NCBI GenBank assembly: GCA_963971425.1
Contig: OZ020523.1
Coordinates: forward strand, 20,751,105 to 20,815,104
Length of the DNA: 64,000 nucleotides
Origin: Bryoerythrophyllum caledonicum
Taxonomy: Eukaryota > Streptophyta > Bryopsida > Pottiales > Pottiaceae
Reading direction: 5' to 3'
This document shows positions 9,152 to 60,520 of the stretch, in pieces. The first letter of the stretch is position 1, and each line of letters begins with the position of its first letter. Under the pieces are notes generated by a model, which had not been told where the DNA came from, did not search any database, and saw nothing but the letters and a program-made list of their open reading frames with translations. The position numbers were made by a program, and so were the translations under genes.

Positions 9152-12100
9152 TTACATTCCTCTCACATCCCTAATAGCGTGGGAAATCTCTTCAAGTCTG
9201 TCACTAATACTATCAAAATCAATTCTTCTAAGCAATGGTATCTTAGAGCTCAAAAAATTTAGGCCTTCAAAAATAAAGCCTAAAACATAGATACCCCCCA
9301 TACAAACTAAAAGAAAAGGACGCCCTATCATCAACCATAGATATTTTGGAATATTCTTGCTGAAACAAAATTGATAAATGTTACGGACCACTGGATTCTT
9401 GTAAAATACAAGTCTTGCCAATCGAATGAGGAATCCACCAATTCCAAGGAGACAAAAGAACCACCCTATGATAGATGGGCTAAAAAGAAGATCAGATGGA
9501 TGAAACATGTTTTCATTTTGAATTGCCACTATGGAGGCCGTTGCATATGAGATGATGATTGATCCAATTGCAACTTGCAGGAGACATAAGGACAATGATA
9601 TCACATGCTTGGCTCGATTGAGCTCACTTATTACTCCCTCTTGAGGCATGGGAAGGGATGATACCACCGCAAACATCACAGAGGCCATGGCAAGATAAAA
9701 TGCCACAGAATTGCTCACCATGAACACCTTTATAAGTGGCTCGTTTGTTCTCACAAATCCAGAGACACCATAGCTCAAAGGAGGTTGCAAAGGTCCAACA
9801 TACGATGTGGCAGCCACCAATGTTCCCACTACAGAAAGCGCATTGCCTCCTTGACCCAATGCAAGTTTTTTATCTGTTGAATCTTTCACCACCGTGTCAT
9901 ACCACCAACTTTGATAAGTTGCATCAATAGTTGGACCAATAGTTGGTACCTTATTGTCTTTGTCGGTTTGTCCCAAGTCAACACCAGCTTGTAGTAACAT
10001 CAACATACATGCTTTCCTATCCACATTAGATCTTTCATTTGATGAAATGTCTAGATAGTTGCCATTCAAGGCATACGTGTCATTGGAGTTGTTTTGTTGC
10101 ACAATGTTAGAGCCCTTGAGATTTTCACCACAAGTGGATGATGAAGGATGTGGTCTATTAATTGAATAACTCCCTATCAATTTCATTCTTACATCAATAA
10201 CATCTTCGACCGCTAAAGAACAATATCCAAGGAGTTGAGACAACAATATTGTTGGATCTGCAGCATGATGGAGCAATGATCTTCCATTTGAGTCGGTAAT
10301 CATAGGATCATGGTTTATCTCCAACAATGATTGCAAGCATGTTTGATTTCCAGTTGATGCAGAAAGGAAGATCATTGAGTTGAATGCATCGTGGTCTCTT
10401 TTCATCACATTTGATAAATCTTTCAGTAAAACATGATTCATGTAAAATTGAATAATAACCAATCCTAAATAGAGAAGCCTCAAGTAAGTTAAACAATGTG
10501 TAATGTAGAAACTTGTATATTGAATACAAAAAGATTTCATTAGAAATGTTAGTCAACATCAAAAACTCTAAGAACCTATATCAAAACTATTTGTACATTG
10601 TCATACTAGTCACAAACTTCATATGTCTGAATTCCAATGAAAATCAACATGGTGCTATATGACATTGTTTTCATAATTAATTATTCTTGTACTTAATTAA
10701 AAATATTGCATATTTTCAAAATGACTAAGTTTATATTTTTAGAATTCAACATTTTTGTAAGATACCAAAGCACAAATGATGACATAGATTCATACAACTC
10801 CAAAAATCTAGTGTGGAATGAAGAATTCAAAATGCAAACCTTATCATAAATTTCTATAAAAAGTGTTACAAAATAAACAATTATTAAAAATCATATTTCT
10901 TGAAATGATTATCAAATTTCACCCGCTTATCTTCATGCACGTCTAACATGTACTATTATTTTATTATTATATCTCCTCAATAATTATTCGTATACAAATG
11001 AAATGCATTATGATGATTGAAATTTTGGCCTTTCAATGAAAACACATATACCAAAAATACGAATGAACTTGAGTGCGTGAAAAACATTATAGAAAAAAGA
11101 AGGACCAAATATACTTCACAAACATACCTTTTCAACAAATTTAGACCATATCTCCTCAACCATAACCTTTTGCTTCAAAAGATATGCAACCTGATAATAT
11201 AAGAAATTTGATACTTCTGAGCATTCAAACTTCTCATATTCGAAGTTGACTTTGAAATAAGTCCACGGATGAAGAATGATATTGTGTTGTAAAAAGTTTC
11301 TTGTGAGAATTGTGTCAATAATTCTTTTCCCTCTTGGATTTTCAACAATTTGAATCCACTCTTTGAAGAATTCATGATTGAAAATCTGCAAAGAAATCAA
11401 TTGGAACATGATATGAACAAATGATATGAACAATAATTTGCTTCATTAACCTTTCAAGCACATTAATGTTTTGTCACTTCAACATCAAAGGAAATGATTT
11501 ACCACGTTTGGAAACTATCATAAATGGACACTTCTATGATACAATCAACAAGTTTAAATATATAATTATAATCTTTCAACTGAATACAAAAGATTATAGA
11601 AAGAGGCTTGACAAATGATTCAAAAGACGCATCAAAGGATAAAGTCATATACCTCATTAAAAGGCCATCCTGGGACCTTGTCATCATTGTAGTGATCCAT
11701 CAATATATGGAAAGGGGTTCGTCCCTTTCCATCCCATGTTTGAAGTAATTTAGGAGCATCATACGGATGTTGCACTATATAAAGTGCCATCTCATGCAAA
11801 AAATCTTTGAACTTAAGAGGATCTTTACAAGCAAAGTGAAATCCCAACCAAGCCTTTCGTGATGAATCTTCAAAATTGAAATCCACATCTTCCTGAAGAT
11901 CTTCATCAAGTGTCAACGTCCAATTCTTTGCAAAAAAGTTACCCAACCATGAAGGCATGGTTGTATTGGCTTCATTTGGGGTTTTATACTTTTCATCTGT
12001 AGTCATGACCGTTGCGTAATAACCTTCTTGTGCTTTTGTAAATTCATTTGAAATTTCTTCACGTTCAAATATTTCTACCATACTCGGTAATGAATTTTCC

Positions 12101-14630
12101 TTCCTTTCTAGCTGTTTTAACATACTTCTAGTTTGTTGCACAACGAAATCACCTTTGATTGATGAGGCTTGCCAATGTTTCAACAAAACATCGTGATCAA
12201 TTTTGCGAATCGCCCACTTCATGTCACTCAAAGAGAGCTCCTCAGGATAATGTGACTTTCCCCAATAAATAACTGGAGAGCCATACTTGTTTTTGATGCA
12301 AAATAGCTTGAGCACTGCCTTGACCAAGTCCAAATCATCCCATAAAATGGCAACATGCAAGACCGTGAGGCCGTGGCACGTCTCAAGTACCAACCGGCTA
12401 TTCCCTTTCACAAGCTTTTTCAATTCCCTTGTATCTCCTTTCTCAAGTGCCTTGTACCAACGTGTCCCAGGATATGCATCGAAGGATATCAACTCATTGA
12501 AGCCTCTTCTTATCAGATGGTCGTCGTTTTCTACATTCAAATGTAGCGTTCGCTCCAAATTGTCCTTACGAGCATACCATTTATAGTAGGCCTTAATAAG
12601 TTCAGCAATGCATCTGTTGCCGATAATATCATTTGCCATCTCAAAGGCCGTTAAACCAGATACCTCATCTCTAGCCAAAATGTACTCGTCAACATCACTT
12701 GAAAGATACCATACTCTCTAAAGCATCAATAGGGCGAGCTGTAAGCAACCCTGCATGGCAGCTGTCTGTAATGCAGTCTGACGCCCTCCCTTTCCATTCT
12801 TCATTTCAACTTTTACCAACTCCTTCTTCAATTTCTTCGTCAATTTCTTTTCCACATCCGAAGCATCACTCCAATCGTCATTGGGCCAAATTTGTAGAAG
12901 GGCAAGACAATCCTTTTTCTTAATCGCATCATTCCATTTCAAGATCTCTGCCGGGGCACGATTGCCTGAAGAAACAGTGCTTGTTCTATTCCACTTCTTA
13001 TCATACTCACGTCGTTCGTTTTTGTTGGCAATATAGTCACGTATTTTGCTCTTGATTGCAGCATGCTTATTCCCTTCCGCGACCACGAGAGCTGTATTAC
13101 CCTGTGCATCTGTTTCCACCTCCGCATACCAGTCTATGTCGAGTGTCCTATCCGAGAAACGCATATCAAGGTCGCCTGCCTCCTCAGCCCAAGACAACAT
13201 GACAAGGATATGTTCCGCAAGCCCGACGTCATTTCGTGCGGCTGCAGCGTGCAAAGCAGTACCGACCTCATTCTTCTTTTCGTACTTCCAAAAATATGTA
13301 GCATCCTTTGCAAGAAGCATTTTTAGTGTATCACAATCCAGCTCCGCTACTGCTCTGCTCCACGAGATCTCATCCGCGTCGGCATTCACGGCTGTTGGTG
13401 GGGCAGTACTGCGAGGATCTCCATTCTGGTCATCCGCTTGAGAAGCACCGTTCTGTTCTATCTCAACTATTTCATACTCTTCAACCCTGCCAGGCCTCTG
13501 GACTGCTCCATCAGCAGGTTCGCCGTCCGCTCCAATTGCAATATCATCAGGTTCGTCATCCACTCCATGAGAATCATCAGTAAGGTTCCCAGCCACAGGA
13601 GAAACATTCTCAAGGTTCGGAGCCAATACATGCCCAGTATCAACTGGATTCACAGGTGATCCAAGCACAACATTGCGAGAGTTCTCAACCCATCCAAGAG
13701 CAATATCACTAGGGCATGGCACCGCTTCAGAAGCATCGTCGTTGGGATTCTCAACCGCTTCAAAGATTACATCATCAAGGTTCCCCGCCACGTCGGGAGC
13801 AGCATCGTCTGGGTTCAAAACATCCGCTCCAAGAGCAATGTTGTTGAGATTCTGGACGACTCCAAGAGCACCATCGTCCAAGTTCTCGGCCATTCCAGGA
13901 GCAACATTACCAGAGTTCCGCACCGCTGGAGCAACATCGTCAGGGTTCGAAATCGCTGCAGGACCAAGACCACCCGAGCTGGAAACCGCTCCAGGAGAAA
14001 CATCGATAGCTGGGATCCCGACCACTCCAGCCTCAGCAACATCATTTCGATTTAAAATCACTTCAGGAGCAACATTGCTAGGGCTCTGGACCACTTCAGC
14101 AGTAACACCACCAGGATTCCCATCCACTAGAGCAACACCATCAGAGACGATTGAAACCGGGTCATGTGAGCGGCTCTCTTGCGGGACCGCCTCAGGGTGA
14201 TAGGGACCTTGATCGACTGTTTCGCCAGGAGAACCCAGGTCGGGTTCAGCATCTGCGAGAGCTGGGTCATGGAGGCCGTCCTTCTAGACAAGTACACCCA
14301 CGATATCTCTAATCACGTTTTTGAACTTGGCAAGCGAGAAACATCATTCATGATATCGTATCAGAAACGTCACATGCATATGAATTCGAGATAGTCTTGT
14401 GCAGAGTGTGTCACCTGAAACCTTTGACTCTACCTGGTTCAGAAAACCTAACGAAGGAGCCTGTCTCAACGTAAGAAATTGCGTTGAAGAATATCACAAC
14501 AAGAAAACCAACAAGAATAGGACAGTGAGACCGCCATGCATAATCTGACAGAAGCCACAAAGCTAACCTCCTTCACAGTAGGACCACTTGGCACCCGTGA
14601 TCCACCACCCTCGTCCAGCCGATCGCCCAT
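9152..14630 (-). pseudogene. Ankyrin-repeat/PGG-domain membrane protein, copy A (probable pseudogene)
   Basis: Counterpart of gene B. Exons by alignment are 14568-14630 (21 codons, ATG at 14630), 11653-14283, 11128-11385 (86 codons) and a last exon corresponding to 9152-10423. The product would be an acidic repeat-rich N-terminus, ankyrin repeats, and a membrane domain with the PGG block (NALSVVGTLVAATSYVGPL..QPP..VSNSVAFYLAMASVMFAV). Two lesions are visible. A TAG at 12718-12720 replaces the AAC codon of gene B within the ankyrin region, and the acceptor before the last exon reads ACTG where B has GCAG. Gene A also lacks the extra N-terminal exon found in B. Without either lesion the frame is open throughout, so decay is recent. 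A rescued shorter product by alternative splicing cannot be excluded. Confidence 0.82.
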
Positions 14631-21240: not shown

Positions 21241-21820
<580 letters not shown>

Positions 21821-22531
21821 CTATGGGGGGTCTAATGTTTCGGGTAGTGGTTGATGGTTTTCTATTCTTCTTTTATGGAGGAGGATAGACATGGCATATT
21901 GTATGGTGATAGTATTTATGTTTTTAAAGGCATTTTTAATGGTAGGCATAGGTATTTTGAAGTTTTCTTCAAATGATTTCATTGATGGAATGTGTGCAGT
22001 GGCTCTGGCGCTTGCTGTAGTGACAATCAGGGGGTTGACTTTCCATCCTTGAGCAATAATACTCGCGATTAATGGTCTGTATTTGTTAGATTTGGCTTCA
22101 AGTGTTTCTGGAGAGAATCTGTCATTGCAATATGTGAATTCAATCAATTGTATGGTAAGATTGGGGTCTATTTCTGTAGGGGGGTCGCTTTGGTATGGTA
22201 AGCCTTTGACACAGAGAATGTCTGGTCTAAATCTTAAGTTGCAATGGCATCTTTGTGCACCGCATGTGCAAGGAAGTAGCCAATTAGGAACGGTATTTTT
22301 TGGTGGTTTATCATTGAAGGTGCCAGCGTTCATGAGAATAAAACAACGAGATTTTTCGGATGAGATTAGTAATTTTCTAATTTCCCAAACTGCTTTGTTG
22401 TGTCTTTTGACGCGAAGTGAATGTATATGTTGTTGTTGGCATGTGAGTAATACATGTAACCATGTATCTGGCTCATGTGAGTTGCAGATGGGGCATGTAA
22501 TAGATGGAAATCTTTGTCTTCCGAAGAACAT
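21821..22531 (-). pseudogene. LINE CCHC knuckle and restriction-like endonuclease region
   Basis: 236 open codons to the element's stop. Residues 13-31 form a C-x2-C-x9-H-x4-C knuckle (CPICNSHEPDTWLHVLLTC), and RHN follows at 43-45. Residues 102-104 are RPD, 129-133 LIEFT, and 145-151 EAKSNKY, then GWKVNPLIV. This order of CCHC, RHN, PD, (D/E)-x-T and K-x-x-KY is that of the restriction-like endonuclease of R2-type LINEs, with Glu131 in the usual Asp place. A cysteine-rich insert, CTCGAQRCHC (88-97), lies between CCHC and PD and is conserved in the second LINE copy. The call rests on motif order, not on a search. Confidence 0.7.
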
Positions 22532-22614
22532 TGTTTTCTAGCATGGCCCATATAAGTTCCCGTACGGAATTTGATGAGGCATGATTTTTGTTTGTCAGTG
22601 ATAGTTGGGTTGTT

Positions 22615-23758
22615 CTAGAATTCATTAGAGAGTTCATTGTCTATGTCTACATTTCCCGTCCATTTGCAAATGTTGGGGGTTTGTATGGCCATGATTTCTA
22701 AATTATTTTCTCTATCAAATTTTTTGATTTGTTTTTCTAGAATTCTAACTGGTCCTTTGTCTGGAACATCCATCATCGATGGCCAATCGTCTTTTTGGTA
22801 GTAGTATGGGGTGGCATGGGCATGTTCGTATGAATGTTGAGCATTTCTATGTGCTAGGAGTAGCCCTTCTTTTGCTAATTTATCTGCTTCTTCGTTGCCG
22901 TCGATGTTAATGTGTGCTCTGACTTTGTATAGTGTAATTGATTGTGTTCTTTTTTGGAGTAGTTCTACCATGGAGGCAAGTGTGACTTGATTTGGGTGGA
23001 CCGTGGCTATTATGCAGTGTGGAGTGTTTTATTTGTGTGTTGAGTAAGTATAATACGTTTAGACAATCGGTAAATATATATGCGGGTTCGTTGGGGTATT
23101 GTGTGTTGATAATTCTTAGTGTTTTATGTATTGCTATCATTTCTGCACGTAGTATATTTTGGTGTCCGTGGAGTCTTTTGGGGATATTAAGGCCTTTGGG
23201 GCTGTAAATACCGTATCTAGCTCTTTCTCTTAGCCATTCGCCGGGGCCGATTTCTTTGGGGGGTTTAAAGGAGCCATCAGTGTAGTAGCTGAATTGAGGG
23301 TGGAATTTTAGTGGTAGGTTTGTTTGGTAATTTGGGAGTTGTGGGATAGGAGTTTGGTTGTTTGTGGATGTAGGTGGATAATTTAGTTTAGACCATTTTT
23401 TACTGGGATTAACAGGGGTATTTAAAGGAGTAGGGGGTGCAATTTGTGTGTGGATTTGTAATATTCGGAGATTGTTTATTATGTGAGTGACTTGATTCAT
23501 TTGTTCGTAGTTACCTATGTTGTTATTCTGGTGATGGATACAAAGTATATGGAGCGTAGATAGTTCTTTCCTTTCGATTTTAAGTTCAGGGGAAATTGAG
23601 GGTTCTTCGTATGTAATGGTGTCTGCGGCAAAGTGGGCAATAATGTGTGTCAGGGAATGGGCCGGTGTATGGGTTAAAGTTTTGGTACCAGTTAGTATCC
23701 GGAGAGATGAGTATAGTGATAGTATTTGGGTCATTTTTTTTCCGCAAGGCGAGCCCAA
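22615..23758 (-). pseudogene. LINE RNase H region
   Basis: Two stretches in different frames (22907-23758 and 22615-22971). The first carries SYYTDGSFKPP (first catalytic Asp), NILRAEMIAIHKTL (Glu) and AYIFTDCLNVLYLL (second Asp). The second carries LYKVRAHINIDGNEEADKLA, the His/Asp block that completes the RNase H active site. RNase H removes the RNA template after first-strand synthesis. It is found in the I, R1 and related clades and in Dualen/RandI. The same residues recur in the second LINE copy (56296-56688). Confidence 0.85.
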
Positions 23759-24060
23759 TGAATGGCTTGATGTAAGTCGGTTTCATTATGGGGGTGGGCG
23801 TAGCCAATTCCTATCCATTTGCGGTCAAATGCTTTCCCTAGGGAGCCAAATATTATATCTCGTGAAAATGGTGAATAGAATTGGGTAAATTGTGTGGGGC
23901 ATGTGATTGGGGATGAGAAATACGAATGGTTGATGTTGAAATTTGTAATTAGGAAGTCTAATATTTGAGTTGATATTGTGTATTGAGCACATTTAAGTGG
24001 GTCGTTTTTTGGGATGCGATATTTATATCTTTGATATAGCCATACAATTTCAGTTTCAAA

Positions 24061-25705
24061 TCATTGGGTAGGTGGCTCAAGGCCGTGTGGGGTATTTTTC
24101 GCATGTTGATATTGTTTCCATAACCATAGTAATCTAGTTTTTGGGATGGTGATGAGGTGCCGGCCATTGTCTTCGTATATATGTGCGACGTCGTATTGTG
24201 TTTGGATGGTGTACGAATTTGTTTCGATGTCATTTTCTGGGTTGCATTCATTAATAGAGACATGTGCTAATGGGATAATTGTGGCCGGGGAAACGTATCT
24301 TGTATCTCTTTGTTGTTCTGTAGAGAAGTGTGCTTTGATGACATTTGAAAAGTGTTTATGTAGGTGTTTCGTATAGTATTGGATAAGTAGTTCGGTATTG
24401 TGGTGACAAGTGGTGGCATCATTCCAAGGGAATAATTCTCTTTGAGTGCGCCATTTGATGTATGTATTATTATCTAGCGTGGTCCATTGGCATAGATATA
24501 TTGTGTCTTTACATTTTATCCCATTTGGATCGTTGATTTTTCGTTTTTTGTGATCTAATACTGTGTGTATGGGAAATTGTCGGAGATATTTAAGCATATT
24601 GTTGGGAGGGGGGGGTTGGGGAATAGGGGGGTTTGGAGGGTGTATGGGGAGGGTTGGCTCTTGTGGTAGGATGTTGTGGTTTATTATTGTGTTGTCATTT
24701 TTTAGAGTTCGTGGGGGGAGATGAAATTGGCATGGTAGTTGGCATCTTTGGTGGCAAGAAGGGTGACAAAATAGTTGGTTAGCAATATTTAGCGCACTTT
24801 TTATGAGTTTAGTGGGGTTGGAGTGGTATATTTTTAAGTCGTCTGGATTCGTTAGGGTGATACCGTTAGGCATGATTATTTGTTCTAATTTTATTATATT
24901 ATGTAATAGTAGTTTTTGTAGTAGTTGAAGGGAAGTCTTAGGATTTAGGCCATGTAAATTTTGCGCTTCTCTCATCCATGCGGTTTCGAGTGAGGATGGA
25001 TTTAATAGAAAACTTTCTATTGTACTTTTGAGATGGACACCGGCTTCATGTTTAAGAAGAAATAGTGTTCTAGTGATAGGTGATCTCACACAATGTTGGT
25101 ATTTAATGCGGGATATTTCTTCGGAGCCTCCAAATTTTGCAAGTATAAATTGTACCAAGCCATATTTTACCAAGTCTACCTTTATCATTGAGGGCATTTT
25201 GTAGTTGTTCTCCGATACAGCGTAGATAGGCATTTTTTAATGAAAAGCCTTCGATTCCGAATAAATCGTATGGAAGTTGTGTAGCGATATTGGATGTGCA
25301 TTTTGGTAGTCCGCATATTGTTTTGTGGAGTGCTATGATCTTTTTGTCAAGTTTTCTAATAGCCGGCATAGAGTATGGTACTGCGTAGAAGCTGTATGCA
25401 ATTCCAGCACATATGACTGTATCGGCCATATTGATTTTTTGTTTCATGGTGGCTGGGCAGGCCACTAGGGCTTGGCATTGTTTAACAACTTTAGCTGTAG
25501 TGGTGTTTATTTGTGTTTTCCATTTAAGTGATGGTGCAAGATTTATTCCGAGATATGTGTATGGATCGTGTTGGTCTAAAACTGGTAATGATTGGTTTCT
25601 GCAATTTATACTGGTGGCTTGAATCTGTGCTTTGAATGCTATGGGGTTCATTTTGGATTTATTTGGGCATCCAGTCACTGCACACTTGGATATTCCGAGG
25701 TCCAT
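24061..25705 (-). pseudogene. LINE post-RT region with cysteine-rich linker
   Basis: Two overlapping open stretches (25103-25705 and 24061-25233) in different frames. The first continues the RT thumb (CAVTGCPNKSKMNP, PYTYLGINLAPSLKWK). The second is an RT-RNase H linker with an unusual block FCHPSCHQRCQLPCQFH, that is C-x3-C-x3-C-x3-C-x2-H, then a proline run and a long unrecognised region rich in W, H and Y. The cysteine block may bind metal; I cannot match it to a named zinc finger. A 3' part of this region is present in the second LINE copy near 57200-57358. Confidence 0.7.
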
Positions 25706-25758
25706 TCCAGCCCATTTGCAGAATTTGTCTAATTTATTTAGTTGTGTTTGTAATGATT

Positions 25759-27370
25759 CTAATTTGTTAGCAATTGCTGCTGATCGTCAGCATATGCTGC
25801 AGATGAAATTTTAACTTTGGATGTACCGAAGGTATACCCATTATCACCTTGTTGTAACCATCTAAGAAGGGGTTCTAAGAATATTATAAATAGGTAAAGG
25901 CTAAGAGTATCTCCTTGTATTGTTCCTCTTTGAATGGGGATAGGTAGGGTTTTACCAAAATGTTCTCCAGAAAATATAGTAGAGGATTTCGAGTATATGT
26001 TTCCTATGAGGTTTATGGCATCGGTTGGGTATCCAAGATCTTTCATTATGGCTAAGAGTCTTGCATGGTCAATGGAGCCAAAAGCATTTTTAAAGTCAAT
26101 GTAGAGGATAAATATATCTTGATTTGTAAATCTTGCATCTTCTAACGCTGCTATGAGTAATTGAAGTTGTCTGGACGTTCCTCTTTCTGCTCGAAATCCT
26201 TCTTGGCTATCGTGCAGAATTTGATGTCTTTCACCGTAAGCGGAGAGGGTGGAGGTTAATGTGCTGGTACAGAGTTTGTATATGGTGTTAGCTAGTGCGA
26301 TAGGTCTATGGTTCGTAAGTTGTGATGGATCGCCTTTTTTATATAGTAAGACAATTAGACTTGTTTTCCATGATGCAGGTATTTGTTTTTGTTTGTAGCA
26401 GTGTTTGAAAAATAGAAAAAGTAGTTTGTGGAATCGTGGGGGCATATTTTTTAGAATAGAATTAGGTATTTTGTCTGGGCCTGGGGCTTTGTTATTTCCT
26501 AGATTTTTGAGGCATAAATCGTAGGTTTCTTGATCAAAATATGTGTGTAGGGGGGTTTGGGGTTCTCCGCGTTTATCAATTGTGAATCCATCTAAGTCAT
26601 GCCATGGGTATTGTCTGATGCTACATGTGCATTGTGGGGGGTGTGTGGTTTGATGGTGGCATGTAGGCACTGTTGACCGGTTGCTAATGGATTGTTGGAT
26701 GTATATTTCTTGAGCAATATCTTCAAGGCTAGTTAAGATGTTATTTTGTCTATCAATTATGGAGTCAAGGGGTGAGGTTTCGGAGTTTTTGAAGACTTTC
26801 CCATTTACTTTTTTGGGGCTTTTTTCATAAAGTTGTCGGTATTTTGATATGACTTTACGGATACAATCTTTAGAGTATTTTGTGGTTATTTTCGTGGCTT
26901 CTTCATTGGCGGTTTTTGCAATAGCAGCTATAGCATCGATCCATTCATTCGGTACAGTGTGCATTACTGGAGGATGTGGGATTTGTACATGTTAGTGATT
27001 CCGTATTTCGTTTAAGATGGGATGTGTTTGCCATTGTGGATTGTTTTTTGCAATGTATATAGTTTTTCTAATAAGATGATATGTGGCAAGGTGTTTTTTC
27101 CATTCTTTGGCTAGTTTTCGAGGCAGAAAGCCGCCTTGTTGCGTTGTTCTAGTTGTGAGATGTGGTAGTGGGGCTGCTTTACAAGTATTTTCAATGGTTT
27201 CTGAGATTTTTTCCACAATGTTGTCTAGAGATATACAGGCTTCTTGCCATAAGTCGGGGGTGAGATGATCGTTATTTTCTAGTAGTCTGGTTAGTTTGTT
27301 TATTTGCGTAGAATTTCTTTCAAAAAATTCAATATTAAATTTTTCTAAGTTTTCTAGGGTATTGGATTTA
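25759..27370 (-). pseudogene. LINE reverse transcriptase region
   Basis: The frame begins within the APE-RT linker, is broken by one TAA (26992-26994), then runs 401 codons from 26964. RT landmarks in order: NKAPGPDKIP, LIVLLYKKGDPSQ, NHRPIAL, SQEGFRAERG, YIDFKNAFGSIDH (motif A, catalytic Asp), GTIQGDTLSLYLF (motif B) and AAYADD (motif C). A frame change immediately after YADD puts the continuing sequence (AIANKLESLQ, then KWAGMDLGISK) in another frame. This is a classical non-LTR RT palm with intact catalytic aspartates. Confidence 0.88.
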
Positions 27371-28658
27371 ATATTCTAATTGTTGGGATGTTAATAGGGG
27401 TCGGGGGTCTGGCTATTAATAGATTTTGTGGGATGTGTAAGGTGACTGGATAGTGGTCTGAGTTTAAATTCATATTGGTGTTTGTCGTGGAGGTGAATCT
27501 AGTATTGTCTGGGGATTTTATGTAGAAACCATCTATTAGGCTGGTTGATGTATAGTTATAGACGCCTTGTTTGGAGAATGTTGTATTTGTTGGAATGTAT
27601 TCTAGATTTAGTGAGTTGGTAAAGTTTTTCCATTGAATATCTTCTTCTTGTGGCGGAGTATTGATATTGTTATTTTGTCTTCCATTTGGTGCGATGTCAC
27701 GGTTAAAGTCTCCGCACATAATGTATATATGGTTAGGGTGAGCAGTGATTTGGCTTGTGATCGCAGTTTGAATATAAGGGATGAGGCGGATGTCTTCTAT
27801 GTGTGTAGGCATATATATGTGTAAGATTAGCCATGGTTGTAGCGGATGATTGTTAATTTTTATTATTTGTAAATATGGGGAAATGTTTGCTGGTGTAGGG
27901 ATTTTGGTGACGTTTCCAGGAAAACCATATTTATTATGTATTAGCGTGAGTAGACCTCCTCTTCCGGGAGTGTAGGGCATTCTTTGTTGTATACATCTTG
28001 TGACGGCGTGTGTGTTATTAAAAATGAGTTTATATTCAGGGAATAGGTTTTGTATAAATTTAGTGGATTTGGTTGCTGTGAGTTTTGTTTCGTTGATGTT
28101 TAGGATTGTTGTATTTGTTAAGGAGTTGTTAATGAGGCTTTGTAGGTTTGGTAGAGCCGTATTAAGTGATGATGCATTCCAAGTTATTATGTTTGTTTCA
28201 TAATTAGTGTTGATGTTTATTCTTGGTGTGGGTGTTGGGATATTTGGAAGGGGTGGTGGATGTGAGTATTCATTTAGACTTTCAAAACACCGTAATGCTT
28301 CAGTTATTAGTTTATTTGGTATAAAAGGAAATTTTCTTTGGAGTGTGGTTGGTGTTGGTGGTGTATCTTGGTTGTGGATAAATTTATATAGTTCATTATG
28401 GATAGAGTTTTTAGGGGATATTAGATCTTGGTTATTTTCAATGAATTTGGTGTATGGGTGTTGTGTGAGGATGTGTCTTTCGGGAGGGTTATTGAGGTTA
28501 GCTAGTCTAATTATTAGCGTATTAGTCCATATATTATTAAAGTAGTGAATATGGGGTTGGGCTAGTATATCATTGCATTTATTTACTAATGGATGAATAG
28601 TAACGACTAATGCATATAATATGTGGGGAAGTGGAGATTGGATTTGCGTTTGTATGTA
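27354..28658 (-). pseudogene. LINE APE-type endonuclease region
   Basis: 435 uninterrupted codons. After a proline-rich spacer the domain begins NIITWNASSL (APE motif with the active-site Asn), then ILNINETKL (catalytic Glu), CGDFNRD (catalytic Asp/Asn), SLIDGFYIKS and NSDHYPV (catalytic Asp-His). All canonical metal-binding and catalytic positions of the apurinic-endonuclease-like fold are present, so this domain appears undamaged. It nicks target DNA for target-primed reverse transcription. The frame is lost at about 27360, where coding continues in another frame (TLENLEKFNIEFFERNS). Confidence 0.85.
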
Positions 28659-29039
28659 CTAGTGTAAATGTGGAAATTCAATGATTGCTTGTTGATGTAG
28701 GTGGTGGTTATTTTTTAAAATTGGGGCAAATGAGTTTGCAATGTGTTGGTATTCTGGATGTAATTTAATTGTATTGGGGATGAAGTATGTTTTAGCTATT
28801 TTCTTCTGTGCGGCTAGATGTGTTCTTAATATGTTAGGCATTGGCCCTGGATTTGATTCAATATCCCCGCATTGAAGTAGGATTAATTTGTTTATAAAAT
28901 AATATCCGTGGTAAATGACTGATTTAGGGTTTTTATTGTTTATTTTATAGTGTTTAATAGTTGTGAATCTAGTTGTTGTAAAGAGGTTAGGTATTGCGTG
29001 TATTATGTTTTTGATTTGTATTGGTAAATAATGTGACAT
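28659..29039 (-). pseudogene. LINE leader region with 2A peptide
   Basis: The frame is open from 29156, but the two most upstream ATGs (29156, 29144) lie in flanking R1 sequence, so the ATG at 29039 (MSHYLPIQIKN) is the likely element start. About 57 residues later comes KLILLQCGDIESNPGP, matching the 2A consensus D-(V/I)-E-x-N-P-G-P with the usual hydrophobic and Gly context before it. In 2A the ribosome skips the final Gly-Pro bond, here releasing a leader of about 65 residues from the downstream polyprotein. A TAG at 28659-28661 ends this stretch; the same frame is then open for 435 codons through the endonuclease, so the stop looks like decay or a read-through site. Confidence 0.78.
28842..28886 (-). 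other. 2A-like ribosome-skipping motif
   Basis: Fifteen codons reading LILLQCGDIESNPGP. Every invariant residue of the 2A signature (D, E, N, P, G, P) is present, and the upstream LLL-x-x-G context fits known active 2A sequences. Family knowledge: 2A-like sequences are known in picornaviruses, trypanosome LINEs (L1Tc, ingi) and several invertebrate APE-type LINEs. I do not know of one in a land-plant LINE. Confidence 0.88.
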
Positions 29040-29135
29040 TGTGGTGGCTTCTGTTGTGTGTTCTGTGATTTTGTTAGAGTACCAGTTGAATATGTTTTGG
29101 TATGTGTTTTTATTACAATGTTTGAAGTATAATAA

Positions 29136-43269: not shown

Positions 43270-43925
43270 AGATATGACATTCACTTTCTATTTTCATTGT
43301 TGTTTGACTTTTGGTCATCAAGCACTTTACATTCTTCTGATATTCTTAAAGAATCGGCATTGTCTACAAGTCGATATGCAATTTTAAACAAATATAAAGG
43401 CACCACGGCCTTGGTGTAGTGGTTTGGGTCATGGCACACCGGTGAGGTAGTTGTGAGTTCAAGTCCTATTGCCGGCATGGTGCCTACCACCATAGTCCAC
43501 CCAATTATGTTGGGGGGTCCCAAGGCCGCGTTGTGTGCAGACCCACAAAGCCCTTGGGGGAGATGACATGTCGGTTGTCTCTAAGGCAATTAGTATAGGG
43601 AAGCACTTAGTGTAGAAAAGTGTTTATCCTCGAGAGGGGGGAGTAGTTCTATTCCACTAGCCTATGTCCCGTGGCCATATGCATAGTGAAGAAAATAAAC
43701 AAGCACTATATTCACGCCGGTCTCCTCTGGAGATTGGAGTTCTTCTTCTTCTTAAATAAATACATGTCATCTACATCTCTTCTTTCCAGGAATGATATCT
43801 TAAAACAAAGAATTGCTAGGCATGCCAAAATCAAGGCTATCAGAAGATAGACTAAAAGAACAAGAGGTATTATTATCATCCAAAGACATTTTGCCAAATT
43901 GAAATATACCACTCTTGAGGCTCAA
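43270..43925 (-). pseudogene. Relic of an ankyrin/PGG C-terminal exon, copy B, split by a SINE
   Basis: Counterpart of 7500-7790. The hydrophobic part (IPLVLLVYLLIALILACLA, then ISFLERR) is at 43758-43915 and the tail (AYRLVDNADSLRI) at 43270-43394, with the SINE between. Here the tail codon is CGA where copy A has TGA. Confidence 0.6.
43395..43757 (+). mobile_element. tRNA-derived SINE
   Basis: 363 bp, plus strand. The tRNA-like head runs from GGCACCA (43399-43405) to TGGTGCC (43478-43484), which still pair as a 7-bp acceptor-like stem. The A box TGGTGTAGTGG is at 43412-43422 and the B box GAGTTCAAGTCC at 43455-43466; together they form an internal RNA polymerase III promoter. The 3' half matches the LINE 3' UTRs in this window and ends in TTCTTCTTCTTCTT. 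It is flanked by AAATA on both sides (43390-43394 and 43758-43762). The empty site exists in copy A ('gcaaatacatgtcatc', near 7612). Confidence 0.92.
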
Positions 43926-44536: not shown

Positions 44537-47500
44537 TTACATTCCTCTCACATCCCTAATAGCCTCAAAAATCTCGTTAAGTCTGTCACTAATAAGTCCA
44601 TCAAAATCAACTCTTCTAAACAATGGTATCTTAGAGCACAACAATTCTAGGCATGTAAAAATCAAGACTAAAACAAAGCAACCCCCCATACAAACTAAAA
44701 GAAAAGGACGCCCTATCATCGACCATAGACATTTCGGAATATTCTTGCTGAAACTAAATTGATAAATATTACGAACTATTTGATTCTTGTAAAATACAAG
44801 TCTCGCCAATCGAATGAGGAATCCACTAATTCCAAGGAGGCAAAAGAACCACCCTATGATAGATGGGCTGAAAAGAAGATCAGACCCATCAAACGAATGC
44901 TCATTCTGAATTGCCACAATGGAAGCCATTGCATATGAGATGATGATTGATCCAATTGCAATTTGCAGGAGACATAAGGACAATGATATCACATGCTTAG
45001 CTCGATTGAGCTCACTTATTACTCCCTCTTGAGGCATGGGAAGGGATGATACCACCGCAAACATCACAGAGGCCATGGCAAGATAAAATGCCACAGAATT
45101 GCTCACCATGAACACCTTAATAAGTGGCTCGTTTGTTTTCACAAATCCTGTTTTGTCATCAAAGCTCAAAGGAGGTTGCAAAGGTCCAACATATGATGTG
45201 GCGGCCACCAATGTTCCCACTACAGAAAGCGCATTGCCTGCTTGACCCAACGCAAGTTTTTTATCTGTAGAGTCTTTCACCACCGTGTCATACCACCAAC
45301 TTTGATAAGTTGCATCAATAGTTGGACCAATAGTTGGTACCTTATTGTCATTGTCGGTTTGTCCCAAGTCAACACCAGCTTGTATTAACATCAATATACA
45401 TGCTTTCCTTTCCACATTAGACCTTTCATTTGATGAAATGTCTAGGATATTGCCACTCGAAGCATGCGTGTCATTGGAGCTGTTTGTTTGCACAATGTTA
45501 GCGCCCTTGAGATTTTCACCACAAGTGGATGATGAAGGATGTGGTCTATTAATTGAATAACTCCCTATCAATTTCATTCTTACATCAATAACATCTTCGA
45601 CCGCTAAAGAACAATATCCAAGGAGTTGAGACAACAATATTGTTGGATCTGCAGCATGATGGAGCAATGATCTTCCATTTGAGTCGGTAATCATAGGATC
45701 ATGGTTTATCTCCAACAATGATTGCAAGCATGTTTGATTTCCAGTTGATGCAGCAAGGAAGAGCATTGAGTTGAATGCATCGTGGTCTCTTTTCATCACA
45801 TTTGATAAATCTTTCTGCAAAACATGATACATGTAAAAATGAATGACAAACAATTCGAAGTAGAAAAGCCTCAAGTCAGTTAAACAATGTGTAATGTAGA
45901 ACCTTGTATATTGAATACAAAAAGATTTCATTAGAAATGTTAGTCAACATCAAAAACTGTAAGTATCAATATCAAAACTATTAGACCATTGTCATACTAG
46001 TCACAAACTTCATGTGTGTGAGTTCCAATGAAAATCAACATGGTGCTATATGACAAATTGTTCCTATAATAAGTTAAACTTGTACTTAAATTAAAATATT
46101 GCGTACGTCCAAGATGACTAAGTTTACATTTATAGAATTCAACTTTTTTGTAAGATACCAAGGCACTAATGATGAAATAGATTCATATAACTTAAAAAAT
46201 CTAGTGTGAAATTATGAATACAAAATGTAAACCTTATCATAATTTTCTATAATTAATGTTACAAAATAAACAATCATTTAAAATCAAATTTCTTGACATG
46301 ACTATCTGGTTTCACCTACTTATCTCCATGCAAGTCTAACATGTACTATTATTTGATTATTATATCTCCCCAATAATAATTCCTATACAAATGAATAGAA
46401 TTATGATGATTGAAATTTTGGCCTTTCAATGTATACATATATACCGAAAATACGTGAAAAACAAAATAGAAAGAAAAAAAGACCAAATATACTTCACAAA
46501 CATACCTTTTCAAGAAATTTAGACCATATTTCTTGAACAATAACCTTTTGCTTCAAAAGATATGCAACTTGATAATATAAGAAATTTGATACTTCCGAGG
46601 ATTCAAATTTCTCATATTCGAAGTTGACTGTGAAATAAGTCCACGGATGAAGTATGATATTGTGTTGTAAAAAGTTTCTTGTGAGAATTGTGTCAATAAT
46701 TCTTTTTCCTCTTGGATTTTCTACAATTTGAATCCACTCTTTGAAGCATTCATGATTGAAAATCTGATAAGACATCAATTGGGTCATGATATGAACAAAT
46801 GTCGGGAACAAAAATTTGCTTCATTAACCTTTATAGAATATTAACAGACACTAAGGCATCCTGAAGGCTTGATGATTTGTCAATAGAAATGATTTTCCAC
46901 GTTTGTAAACTATCACAAACAAGTACTTCTATCATACAATCAACAAATTTAATAAATAATGATAATCTTTCAACTAAATACAAAAGATTACAAAATGAGG
47001 CTTGACAAATGATTCAAAAGATATCAAAGGATATAGTCATATACCTCATTAAAAGGCCATCCTGGGACCATGTCATCATTGTAGTGATTCATCAGTATAT
47101 GAAAAGGGGTTCGTCCCTTTCCATCCCATGTTTGAAGTAATTTGGGAGCATCATACGGATGTTGCACTATATAAAGTGCCATCTTCTGCAAAAAATCTTT
47201 GAACTTAAGAGGATTTTTACAAGCATAGTGAAATCTCAACCAAGCCTTTCGTGATGAATCTTCAAAACTGAAATCCACATCTTCCTGAAATTCTTTATCA
47301 AGTGCCGGCGTCCAATTCTTTGCAAAAAAGTAACTCATCCGTGAAGGCATGGTTGTATTGGCATTAATTGGGATTCCGTACTCTTCATCTAAAATCATGG
47401 TCTCAACATAACGACCCATAAGAGCTCTTGTACATTCATCCGAAAGCTCTCCACGTGCAAATATTTCTACCATGCTCTCTAATGAATTTCCCTTCCGTTC

Positions 47501-54458: not shown

Positions 54459-54795
54459 TAAAAATATAAGATTAAATTTCTATTATAAAATTCCATACAA
54501 TCGAAATTTATAATATAATATCATGTGATAGTCTACCATATTAGTGCAGGATTCCATTCGCCGCCCTGGTTGTCATTGAGTATCTTAACCACACTGACTT
54601 GGTAAGCAGGCGAGAGTATCGCGTCACTGGATTCCTGACTCGTCAAGAGTCAAGCACAGTTTTGTTCAGAATGATGTAGAATGAATACCCGTCGATCTGG
54701 GGAACTTGGGAACGTGGTCGGGAACAGAGCGTCACTTGTGAACTCTTCTTCTCGAGTTGTTCCCCCGCACCTTGTTGGGAACGACCTCTCGTGAC

Positions 54796-54867
54796 TAGAA
54801 GAAGAAGAAGAACTCTGGTCCCAATTAGTGGGCCGGCGTGAATAAAGTGTCTGTCCGTTCCACCACC
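54796..54867 (-). mobile_element. Truncated SINE/LINE tail
   Basis: Minus-strand tail of about 70 bases ('gggccggcgtgaataaagtg' next to an 'agaagaagaagaagaa' tract), abutting the next, longer tail at 54868. It is a 5'-truncated insertion next to, or at, the end of another retroelement tail. Confidence 0.65.
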
Positions 54868-57358
54868 AAGAAGAAGAAGAGGACGAAGAACTTCAGTCTC
54901 CAGCGGAGGCCGGCATGAATAAAGTGTCTGTTCTTTTAGAATCCGAGATCCATGTAGGAACTTGGACACCACCACCAAGTCTATGTCCACCAGACATGGG
55001 TTAGTAGTATGAACTACTCCCTCCTCTTGAGGGTAGAGACTTTGTACCACGTAACATGTAACCTAGAGCAATGAGCCCGTGACGCCGAGGGGGTTGATGT
55101 GATGAAGTGTGTGGTAGTTTGTCATGGGGGGTCGAGCGTGTTTGGGATGGGTTGGTTGTTTTTGAGTTTTCTTTTGTGAAGGAGTATGGACATAGCATGT
55201 TGGATTGCAATAGTGTTAATATTTGTGAAGGTGGTCTTCATTGAGGACATGGGAATTTTGAATGTTTCTTCAAGGGTTGTCATTGAGGGGATTAGGTGGT
55301 GGCTCTAGCACCCGCAGTGATGACAATGATGGGGTCTACTTTCCATCAAAGTGACTGAATATCATTGAGGAGTGGTTGATATTTATTTGTTTTGTTTTCA
55401 ATAGCTTCCAGTTATAATCTATTATTACAATATTTGAATTCAATAAATTGAATGGTGAGATTTGGGTCAATGTGGGTTCGTGGGGAGTCTTTGTATGGCA
55501 GCCCTCTAACACATAATATGACTCGTTTAAATCTGGCACTACAATGACATCTTTGTGTACCGCATGTGTATGGTAAGAACCATGGGGGAACCGTATTTTC
55601 TTTTGGGTTGTCAATAAAGGTTCTGGCATTCATGAGGATGAAACAACGAGATTGGTTCGATGACACAATTAATTTATGGATTGCCCACACCGTTTGTTGT
55701 GGCGTTTAACAATTAAGGCATGTATATGAAGGTTATGGCATTTGAGTAAAACATGTAGCCATGTATCCGGGTTCGTAGTGTTGCATATTGAACATGTTAT
55801 GGAGGGAAATCTTTCTATGCCAAAGGAACTGTATACGGGCGTTTCCCATATATTGTCCGATGCGGAATTCGACTAGGCATGTGATTTGTGAATCCTTGAT
55901 AATGGGGTTTTTCCAAAAATTGGTGGAGTTCTTTGTCAATGTTTGTATTACCAATTCATTTATCAATATTAGGAAATTTTTACATGAGTATTTCCAAACT
56001 ATTTTTTAGGTCGTGTTTTTTGAGGTATTTATCGAAGAATCTTATGGGGCCTTTATCGGAGGTCTCGCCCATAGAGGGCCATTCATATCTATGAAAGTAG
56101 TATGGGGTGGTGTAAGCGTGTTCATATGGGTGTTTGGCATCTTGGTAGGCTTTCTCTCAACCTTCTTTTGCTAGTTTGTCGGCTTGTTCGTTGCCATCTA
56201 TGATAGCATGGGCTCAAACCTTATGAAGTGTGGTGATTTGTGTGCGATTTTGGAGCATTTCGACCATGGATGTTAGGATAGTTTGGTCCGGATGACTATT
56301 GTGTTGAGTGAGGTGTTTTTTTGTATGTGTTTGGGAGGTATAATACATTTATGCAATCCGTGAAAATGTGGGCCGGTTCGTTGGGGTATTGCATGGTAAT
56401 TATCTTGAGGGTTTTGTGGATAGCCATCATTTGGGCTCTAAGGATATTTTGGAGTCCATGTAGTCTTTTGGCAAGTTGAATTCGTTTGGTGGGGTTGTAT
56501 ATTCCATAGCCGACTTTTTCCCGGTGCCTATAGCCCGGACTTACCTCAGTTGGTTCTTTGAAGGAATCGTAAGGGTAGTAACTAAAGTTGGGATCAAATT
56601 TTAGAGGGGTGTGAGTTTGGTATTTGGAAAGTGGGGGGGTTGGAGGGGTTAGTGGTGTGGAGCTATATGTAGGAGGGGTCTTGGCCATTTTTTTAATTGT
56701 GGTTTAGACAAATTAGTGTGGGTGTAAGTGGAGCAATTGCTATGTATACATTATTGATGTTGAGATTTTTTGCAATTAGTGTAAGTTGAGCGGGGTGTTC
56801 TAATGTGCCAATTTCTTGATTTTGATGATGTATGCATAGGACACGTAAGGTTGAGGATTCAAGTTTGGGTTTTTGTATTCTTGGTGGTATGGTGGGTTCA
56901 AAATATAACATTGAATCCGCTTCAAATAGTGCTATTATGTAGGAATCTCGAAATGGGCCCTATTGTGGATTGAAGTTTTGATATCAATTAGTGTTGGGCG
57001 TGATAATGATAGTAGTGGTATGGTTGAAATTGTTGTTTGCTGCTATGTACGCGGAATAGGTTGTTGTATTGCTTGTTGTGCTTCTTCGTCATTGTGGAGG
57101 TGTATAAGGCCTATTTGTTTCCATTTATATTCAAATGCTTTTCCAAGTGGGCCAAATATTTTATCCCATTTGAATGGAGAATAGAACTTCAAGATTTTTG
57201 TAGAACATGTGACGGGGGATGAAAAGTATGATTATCTTATTTTAAAAGATGTGATAAGGGAGTCTAGTATAGGAGCGGGTAGTCTATAATGTGCATGTTT
57301 AAGGGGGTCATTTTTGGTATGCGGTATTTGTATCTTTGATATAGCCAAACAATTTCAG
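54868..57358 (-). mobile_element. Second copy of the LINE, 5'-truncated
   Basis: Same family as 21243-29135, minus strand, covering only the 3' third. Open pieces include an RNase H part (56296-56688: FSYYPYDSF, NILRAQMMAIHKTL, AHIFTDCINVLYL) and part of the restriction-like nuclease (55412-55690: GTQRCHCSARF, LTIQFIEFKYC). It has many frame breaks. The catalytic Asp of YTDGS reads YPYDS and the Glu of RAEM reads RAQM. The 3' UTR (about 54868-55065) shows the SINE-shared tail ending in a TTC tract. It ends abruptly at 57358 at the point equivalent to 24050 in the first copy, as expected for incomplete reverse transcription. Confidence 0.85.
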
Positions 57359-57639
57359 CCAATAAGATCTCAATGAATAAAAATCCCAAATTCATGAAAC
57401 TTGTAACATGTGACTCAAGTCAAGATGCACATTCTTCCTATTTTAAAAATTAAACATTTTGACTTCTCACCAAAATTTTTTTATTTCCATAGAAATTTCA
57501 TTCAAATAAAAATGTGTCTTAAAATAGTCTATTTAAAGTGAAATTCATCATGAAGGTAGATTCCCTTATGTATTATAACATGTCCAAATTTCACTTTATA
57601 ATTTTAATTTCTCAATTTATGAGAGCAATTTTTAGGGCG
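57359..57639. other. Spacer, nothing recognised
   Basis: Short AT-rich stretch between the truncated LINE and the A/C-rich segment. Confidence 0.4.
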
Positions 57640-58740
57640 GCCAACAACTTTTGTGAGTCACTGTATGCACTGGGGGTTTGTGTTTTTGATTATTTTTGTG
57701 TTGGTAGAGATGGTGGTTGTTTTTAGTGGTTTGTTGGAATTTGTGTGTCATGACAAGTGATGTGGTTGTGGTTGTATTTATGTAAAGGGGTTTGTAGTGA
57801 GAGGTGTGGTAGCTTAGTAATTTGACTGCAGTATAGTATGTATTTAGAGTTACGGGTTTCTTAGCTTTGGTTGTATAAGAGTTGCCATTATGTCTTGGGT
57901 GGTGTGGTTGAAAGTTTTGTGTAAATATTGGAAATTTTTGTCTATTGTGTACTCTCTGGGTATGTGCGGCTGCCATGGTGACTACAGCTACGATTGGAGG
58001 GGAGTGGATTGGTTGTTGTAATTATAGGTGTATTAATGAAAGGATGAGTGGTGTGGTTTGCCTTTATGGTCATAGTTGTGTTTAAGTGTGGGCTTATAGT
58101 TCTTTGAGTGTATGTATTTGTAGGTGTGGTGGAGGTTAGCAATTTTGTATGTGTGTTTGTATTTGTTTTTAGAGTGTCTTGCCATATGTGTGTCATTGAT
58201 GTAGTTCCAAATATTGGTTTGAGTGGAATGGAAGTTGTGGTGAGGTTATACTTTGTGGTTAGGGATGTATTTATAATGATGTGATATTTTTCTTAGAGAT
58301 TTTGGGAGGTGTGTGTAAAAAGATGTATATGGGTGTATGGTGGTAAGTGGTTGTGGTATTTGAAGGTGTGTGGGAGTAAGGATAGTGTGTCGTGTGTGGA
58401 TGTATGAGGTGTGTTTTTAATGTTGGTATGCGGTAGGGGTGTGTGGGTGTTGAGTATGTGTATTCCATGTGTGTTTTTCCAAGAGATATTCATACCGTAA
58501 TGGTATACGCAGTGACAATGTTTATATATATTGCGGATTGAATCCCAAAACCAATACAAATATACACCATATGGTCTCCACGTCATGTATCTTGACATAG
58601 GTGTGTTGTAGTAGAGGTGTAGAGTGTGTCTAGAGTAGGAGGTAGCTAGGGAGAGAGGTGTGGAGACTATAGTGAGGCAAGAGTAAACTATAGATAGGGG
58701 AGTAGAGTGGCATACCACTAGTGAAAGCAAAGCCGACAGA
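57640..58740 (-). other. A/C-rich open segment, possible retroelement relic
   Basis: On the minus strand this 1.1 kb is strongly A/C-rich and open in several short frames (57632-57976, 57942-58196, 58293-58730) with Thr/His/Asn/Pro-rich products. The base composition matches the sense strand of the LINE, so it may be a leader or spacer of a related element, but I find no catalytic motif and no 2A. Confidence 0.35.
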
Positions 58741-58839
58741 GAGTATTGGTTCTAAGAGTTTACAACTACTTGGAGGGGTGTAGGGATTAATAATGCAATA
58801 AATATGATATTACAAACTTACAAAGTGTAGTGAGGAGGA

Positions 58840-60520
58840 TAGAACTCATTGAAAGAGATCACAATTTCAATGAGCAAGGGAATGCATGGAAAGAGTGGGA
58901 AAAGGTGGAGGAGAGGAATAACAAACTTGTTCACCCATGTGGTTCTAAATTGATGATATCTTCGGGCGTAGTCCTTGGTCAATCCATGTTTGAGTGGTCC
59001 TCTAGAGCTGGGATTGTTGGTGGTCGAGATCATGTAATCTGTTGCATAGCCATCAATGTAGAGGCCATGAACTCCTCAACATTTGAGAGTTTTGTCTGTA
59101 GTTCATTGGTGCGGCTGTCAGTGTAGGCCCTTGTATCCCTATTGATGTCCTCTCAAAGGGTGGAGAGCTCTTGGCGTAGTCTCTTGTTACCTGCATCTAT
59201 CATAGAGACCATTTTTGACTCGGTAATGCCTGCAGGGGTGGGGGTTGCTTGGAGGAACGCCACAATGTTTATGAGTGCTTTCTTGATGTCATTGAAACCC
59301 CATTTCTCCAACAAGACAGTCGAGAGTGAGTCATCACCGTCTAAGCTGCGGCGGTGGGGAGAAATCTCCACTTGATGTCGTCCTATAGTGAAGGTCTTGT
59401 GTAGGAATTGACAGTAGACTATGGGATTAGGAGATTGCACATTGGCACTACCATTGTGTTTTCCACCCTGCTGCCTATGAAACCATATAGAGATTACATT
59501 CTTAGCATCGAAGATTTGGTGAATAGCAGCCGTGGTTTTTGCCACGCTCATAAGGATGGAAAGCTGGGAATGCATTACCGTCAGAGCGTCCTTCTTGGCT
59601 CTATCAGCAGGGGAGAGGCTTCCAGAGCTGTTGGTGCACGCTGGTATCACCTCATGTTATGTGGAAATCTAGTGGAGCTCAAATATTTTGGTTTGTTGGG
59701 GGGTTGGGGCAACAATGCAGGCGTGTGACTCCTCCTATACCTTCTACACATCTGTAGTCTCAAATTCCAAGTTTCTTGAGAACTTGTTTGCGACCACATC
59801 GCGGAAGAGGGTGTGAGCAGCAACACCTTGGAGAGTCTCACTTTTGATTTGCATTGATAAATTCTTCCGTGCCACTGCGTGGAAAGTTTTGCACACTTTT
59901 CCTAGGGAGGCCTGTCTTATGGGATCCAAGAATAAAATGAAGTAGCAGGTGCCTCGAATGAAAGCAATAGCATCCACCTACGGCTTGAGAAGATGTAATT
60001 CGATAATACCTCACCAAACACACTTTTGTCCCTTTTTTTGACTTCTTTGCATAAAACTGCAATGGGGTCCATTAGATTAGTGCCTAATGGCATTTTCATG
60101 CATTTGATTCTAGCTAGAGCAAGTTTTTTTACATCATCATGGTACATGGGGTGCTGTGGCAATTTGAAATGAATTGCCACATGATAGTCATAAGGATGTC
60201 CAGTGACAGGGTTCGTAGGAATATCAAAAGGTACCTGGGTAAGATTGTAATGTTGGCCCTCAATGTTGTCGCTGCGCACTAAAGAATATAGAAGTTGTAG
60301 GATCCTAGGATAGGCCACAACAACACCCAAGGCCTCCTCTGTTTCTTCTTTGGGTACTCCACGGGTGTTCATTTTTTTAACACTCTCCCCACTAAACAAA
60401 AGCTCTTGCCCCACATCCATGGCAAATTTTTCCATAGTAGAGAAGCCTAACCAAATTTGAAATGAGGAGAGGTTAGGGACAGAAACTTGGATGGGGGTAG
60501 GAGAATTAGCTTTGGCTTTT
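58840..60520 (-). pseudogene. Decayed, unrecognised coding relic
   Basis: Several minus-strand open stretches (60588-59917, 59977-59744, 59650-59153 and a short one below) share similar, non-AT-biased codon composition and lie in collinear order, so they probably come from one gene. Visible features are a globular part with hydrophobic helices and, at the downstream end, a heptad-like polar stretch suggesting a coiled coil. I cannot assign a family. It has several breaks and no reverse transcriptase or protease motif. A virus-derived or mobile-element origin is possible, as is a host pseudogene; treat it as a fossil. An R2 element lies immediately upstream. Confidence 0.4.

Follow-up and report, generated by a model that had tools for sequence, protein, structure and literature searches.

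Many RNA viruses use natural 2A (StopGo) sequences, whereas cellular genes seldom do, and the part of PMC12846837 drawn on here records no natural use found in plant viruses. Among the cellular cases already published are 2A-bearing LINEs of trypanosomes and animals (L1Tc of Trypanosoma cruzi; elements of sea urchin and other animals), and in sea urchin NLR proteins a 2A that skips incompletely acts as a signal or targeting sequence (PMC4981915). Dualen/RandI LINEs, known from Chlamydomonas and cryptophytes, combine an APE-type endonuclease with a restriction-like endonuclease (RLE) in one element (PMC4640811). Further context is given elsewhere (PMC12747079, PMC11512398, PMC5009743, PMC8226300, PMC3747384); all these publications are cited from excerpts. 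Our full-text literature search, in which records were judged mostly by title and the start of the abstract, yielded no report that we recognised of a 2A in a plant LINE. Rao 2025 is said to survey 2A sequences of eukaryotes, and plants could already be among its entries.

The locus compared here with these systems lies in a 64 kb stretch of DNA, called the window, and encodes the motif LILLQCGDIESNPGP (28842..28886). Judging from its sequence and that of its relatives, we consider it probable that this motif is a functional 2A site, conserved in ORF2 of a large group of LINEs, some of whose copies in the genome are very young. Minus-strand positions 28886-28842 translate to LILLQCGDIESNPGP, a product that the plus strand does not give, and this is the sole D-x-E-x-N-P-G-P in the six-frame translation of the window. 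A degenerate DNA pattern for the motif matched the window once and none of 100 dinucleotide shuffles. The hexapeptide ILLQCG, which precedes DIESNPGP, is L-rich and ends in CG; such an L-rich hexapeptide ending in G is also a feature of published motifs 2 and 6, together with G at p11 and D at p12 (PMC12846837, in the part cited). The original prediction of a textbook 2A was borne out in this respect, since the context is canonical, with the core octapeptide D(V/I)ExNPGP and a suitable hexapeptide with G at p11 and D at p12. The minus-strand frame that contains the motif (29192-28659) is closed by a TAG (28659..28661), and the same frame resumes as 28658-27354 with an APE match. The predicted arrangement, in frame with the APE and separated from it by one TAG, therefore stands, to which the strand, left unstated, and further frameshifts and stops downstream have to be added. 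The window also contains a pair of similar genes with ankyrin and PGG domains, both on the minus strand and approximately 35 kb apart (9152-14283 and 44537-49765); these domains, PGG being taken as a plant domain, are the basis on which we read the host as a likely land plant.

The motif belongs to a 5'-truncated, decayed LINE copy on the minus strand (21244..29112, including a (CT)n tail at 21244-21402), which was delimited by homology to the sister copy L002/L036 and by the AG/CT tract. The two copies share 93% protein identity, and at the DNA level 96.7% over 29112-21812 and 95.1% over 21573-21390; homology thus spans 29112 to 21390, and the (CT)n tract then extends to 21244. Approximately 240 bases near the 3' end of the window copy (21574-21811) are absent from L036. 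The window copy consists of eight frame segments with four internal stops and is a dead relic. Because L036 continues upstream into ORF1-like sequence, the window copy must be regarded as 5'-truncated, and Met 29039, proposed earlier as a plausible start about 57 codons before the motif, is not an established start: homology to the sister begins at 29112. This Met, which opens the remaining leader (28887..29039, minus strand), is shared by the three window-type copies that were read, L001-L003; in alignment A1 it aligns in P0012 and is absent from P0013, P0014, P0015, and P0022. The short leader of the original prediction is likewise not native; it results from truncation near 29112, and long-frame copies have 264-492 open codons before NPGP.

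Downstream of the motif, all on the minus strand, follow an open frame comprising a linker and an APE-type endonuclease (27354..28658; Exo_endo_phos_2 7.6e-6, Exo_endo_phos 6.5e-4, both slightly under the Pfam curated cut-offs, at 26.2 vs 27.4 and 20 vs 24.5 bits, in this decayed copy), a reverse transcriptase (RT) segment (25762..26991; RVT_1 3.7e-19), a PCIF1-like segment (23734..24060; PF12237 8.4e-10, 38.9 bits against a cut-off of 31.1), and an RNase H interrupted near 23017 by a frameshift (22618..23617; RNase_H 4.9e-5 and 5.7e-4 on two pieces, each alone under the curated cut-off). The last segment (21824..22537) carries a CCHC motif and a possible restriction-like endonuclease, suggested by invariant CCHC and PD..E..K..KY residues and weak fold neighbours; a Pfam search of this segment matched no family. 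The window holds another member of this LINE group, recognised by homology (54793..60497, minus strand); it comprises ORF1, a partial leader, an internal gap, and a C-terminal part, and the six-frame scan found no 2A in it. On the plus strand, a lone piece resembling the LINE 3' end (43617-43733) may be a truncated copy or a SINE with a common tail.

Across the genome to which the window belongs (437,360,962 bases, 894 contigs), a GDIExNPGP codon pattern had 1,599 matches (811 + 788), compared with none for the reversed pattern. Of 5,482 candidates from the protein search, 78 places were scored, which is a lower bound, and 30 of these 78 were made into loci. The 2A is intact in 27 of these 30 family loci, the exceptions being L003 (DIKSNLGP), L004 (a stop replaces Gly), and L028 (DIKTNPRP). 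It is kept in all 23 loci with open frames longer than 1,000 aa, L002 being counted among them though a stop falls 11 codons past its 2A, and in four of the other seven; the Fisher p of 0.009 for this difference is only a guide, because the copies are related and the counts non-independent. A second set, formed by the first 30 of the 1,599 pattern matches by position on one contig, has MPN after the motif in every case, and 25 of the 30 match the LINE group over at least 150 following residues; L063, L064, and L052 match it over shorter stretches, while in L048 and L050 the frame is lost too early for a match. The 57 genomic motifs read comprise 30 distinct DNA versions, in which only p15 is free (T 38, K 17, S 2); G occupies p11 in all 57, as the search pattern demanded. 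Some copies are near-identical, L032 and L033 differing at 8 of 12,363 bases. The 3' ends of L032, L033, and L034 carry a G+C-rich hairpin, its loop of the TTCG type, followed by TTC/CT repeats.

The motif is also retained in relatives found elsewhere. Among the best 120 of 196 protein matches to a query consisting of leader, 2A, and APE, 49 span the eight core columns, with identity down to 39%, and 40 of these 49 keep the core (39 as D(V/I)ExNPGP and one as DSEVNPGP). The remaining nine have one core change each (NLGP in four; NPDP, NPEP, NPRP, HIES, and DVHP in one each), and the other 71 listed relatives stop short of the motif site, a number of them beginning at the Met directly after it. 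In a 27-row alignment of the window with 26 chosen matches, the leaders of different subfamilies do not align; within the core, D, N, and the final P never vary, conservation is 96% for I, E, and G, and it falls to 89% for the first P. G at p11 occurs in most but not all relatives (exceptions include ADVH in P0066 and RDIE in P0050). P0066 carries GDIHTNPGP and ADVHPNPGP, a tandem pair of 2A-like sequences that each have H at p14, a variant reported to be active in vitro (PMC12846837, in the part cited), and P0003, a distant APE-RT LINE protein of 1544 aa, has QDVESNPGP just ahead of the endonuclease region. Taken from genome and relatives together, 64 2A-bearing sequences fall into 13 groups under 70% identity. 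The original prediction was to stand or fall with relatives that lack the core or place it out of frame; the motif proved to be kept in frame across divergent copies. That it recurs in many genome copies and in distant relatives makes the signal look functional rather than a fluke. The decay of the window copy would fit a chance match or a relic confined to that copy, which we nevertheless regard as extremely improbable in view of the shuffles, and which the genome-wide count and the conservation in relatives refute.

Changes within the motif are mostly synonymous. The dN/dS ratio was 0.06-0.37 over the 15-codon 2A block in six pairs, with few changes, 0.08-0.12 from the APE to the end (six pairs), and 0.13-0.22 just after the 2A in the four computable pairs; that of the 23 codons preceding the block was erratic.

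The region upstream of the 2A is less uniform. Five long-frame copies (L031-L035) have a continuous frame on both sides, with 264-492 open codons before the 2A and approximately 2,340 after it, and the leaders of such copies are variable and of low complexity. Over the approximately 600 bases ahead of the 2A, many leaders in L005-L030 have an extreme A/C content (A up to 0.6, C 0.36; G 0.02) and encode poly-Q or poly-N. Several observations count against a working 2A: the open frame before it lacks an AUG in 11 loci out of 28 (first set) and in 14 out of 30 (second set), the core is altered in 3 of 30 loci and 9 of 49 relatives, and the L032/L034 leader shows no clear coding selection, with a dN/dS of 0.66 (0.49-0.93) compared with 0.72 and 0.80 in the other frames. 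The missing AUGs, the A/C-rich, low-complexity leaders, and, also counting against a working 2A, the Met that directly follows NPGP in each of the 57 genomic motifs examined would suit an ORF2 that begins at this AUG, with the 2A codons lying in an upstream stretch rarely or never translated. Such a start leaves unexplained why the core is retained through synonymous change with only p15 free, and divergent relatives without that Met (NPGPKLNLLL, NPGPITNLLL, NPGPLTNILT) still keep the core. In addition, the upstream frame is open, and the longest of the three, in 25 of 28 loci, and the L032/L034 leader has no stops in this frame vs 23 and 24 in the others; we therefore judge a start after NPGP to be unlikely.

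It is also conceivable that the motif is translated and conserved mainly for another role, e.g. as a targeting or signal sequence that skips incompletely, as described for sea urchin NLR proteins in the cited part of PMC4981915. Its position toward the N-terminal side and the hydrophobic LLLLxG stretch ahead of the core would agree with such a role, but in long-frame copies 264-492 residues of the frame precede the motif and it is not N-terminal, which makes this explanation quite improbable. If the motif works as a 2A, as we favour, a ribosome translating the leader would reach D-I-E-x-N-P-G, free the leader without a stop codon, and resume from the next Pro, giving a separate enzyme polyprotein of approximately 2,340 residues (APE, RT, PCIF1-like domain, RNase H, and possible RLE). 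Were such skipping to take place in the host, the enzyme half would presumably be the target of selection, and the leader could vary freely because it is cut off. L031 and L032 are 93.7% identical only from approximately 85 bases before NPGP onward, their leaders being unrelated, as if the leader had been exchanged or had diverged past recognition.

The region after the 2A in long-frame copies encodes an APE, an R2-like RT, a PCIF1-like domain, an RNase H, and a possible restriction-like nuclease. In L033, Exo_endo_phos lies upstream of RVT_1 and scores above its cut-off, and RNase_H reaches 3.4e-12 (Pfam). The RT, for which the best 120 of 394 protein matches were listed, matched PDB chains of R2 at 6e-23 and of LINE-1 at 6e-11, a comparison limited to solved structures. 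The PCIF1-like domain (PF12237) stands between RT and RNase H and is above the cut-off in the window copy, in L033:5403-8588, and in L034:6000-7100. The catalytic motif of PCIF1 is NPPF, in place of which HPHN seems to stand here. The Chlamydomonas Dualen contains a cysteine protease; in L033/L038, Pfam detected none in the leader, in the pieces of ORF2, or over 440 residues of ORF1. Of the plant APE LINE originally predicted, the APE is confirmed, but with its R2-nearest RT, RNase H, PCIF1-like domain, and possible second endonuclease the element is not an ordinary APE LINE.

We tentatively propose, as a possibility that may well need revision, that an expanded and recently active dual-endonuclease LINE lineage of a land plant has StopGo fixed in ORF2, the 2A separating a leader that changes quickly and can be exchanged, on one side, from an unchanging enzyme module with the PCIF1-like domain, on the other. 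If so, plant ribosomes would meet natural StopGo at up to approximately 1,600 genomic sites, and leaders would be swappable between lineages (cf. L031 and L032), because the 2A frees the enzyme from the leader. A plant LINE group with approximately 1,600 codings would add a land-plant setting for StopGo and offer plant biotechnology a large natural series of 2A variants, and the use of 2A by a LINE to part leader from enzyme would become testable.

With the viral StopGo motifs 2 and 6, as far as they are described in the part of PMC12846837 used here, this LINE group shares the core D(V/I)ExNPGP, G at p11, and an L-rich hexapeptide, many of these ending in (A/S/C)G. Here, in contrast, the carrier is a chromosomal LINE, many copies have GG before the core, and in most of the genomic copies read p15 is T or K, whereas the same source ties motifs 2, 4, and 6 to S. 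The 2A-bearing APE-type LINEs (L1Tc, sea urchin, and other animal elements), as excerpted, likewise have D(V/I)ExNPGP in frame with APE and RT; the group described here differs in its likely land-plant host, its long variable leader, its R2-like RT, its RNase H, its PCIF1-like domain, and its possible second endonuclease. Dualen/RandI elements resemble it in the APE upstream of RT and the RNase H, and may do so in an RLE-like C-terminus (a candidate here) and in the RT, which branches between the R2-type and APE groups in those elements and is nearer R2 than L1 among solved structures here, but the portion of PMC4640811 cited mentions neither a 2A nor a PCIF1-like domain for them, and this LINE group has both.
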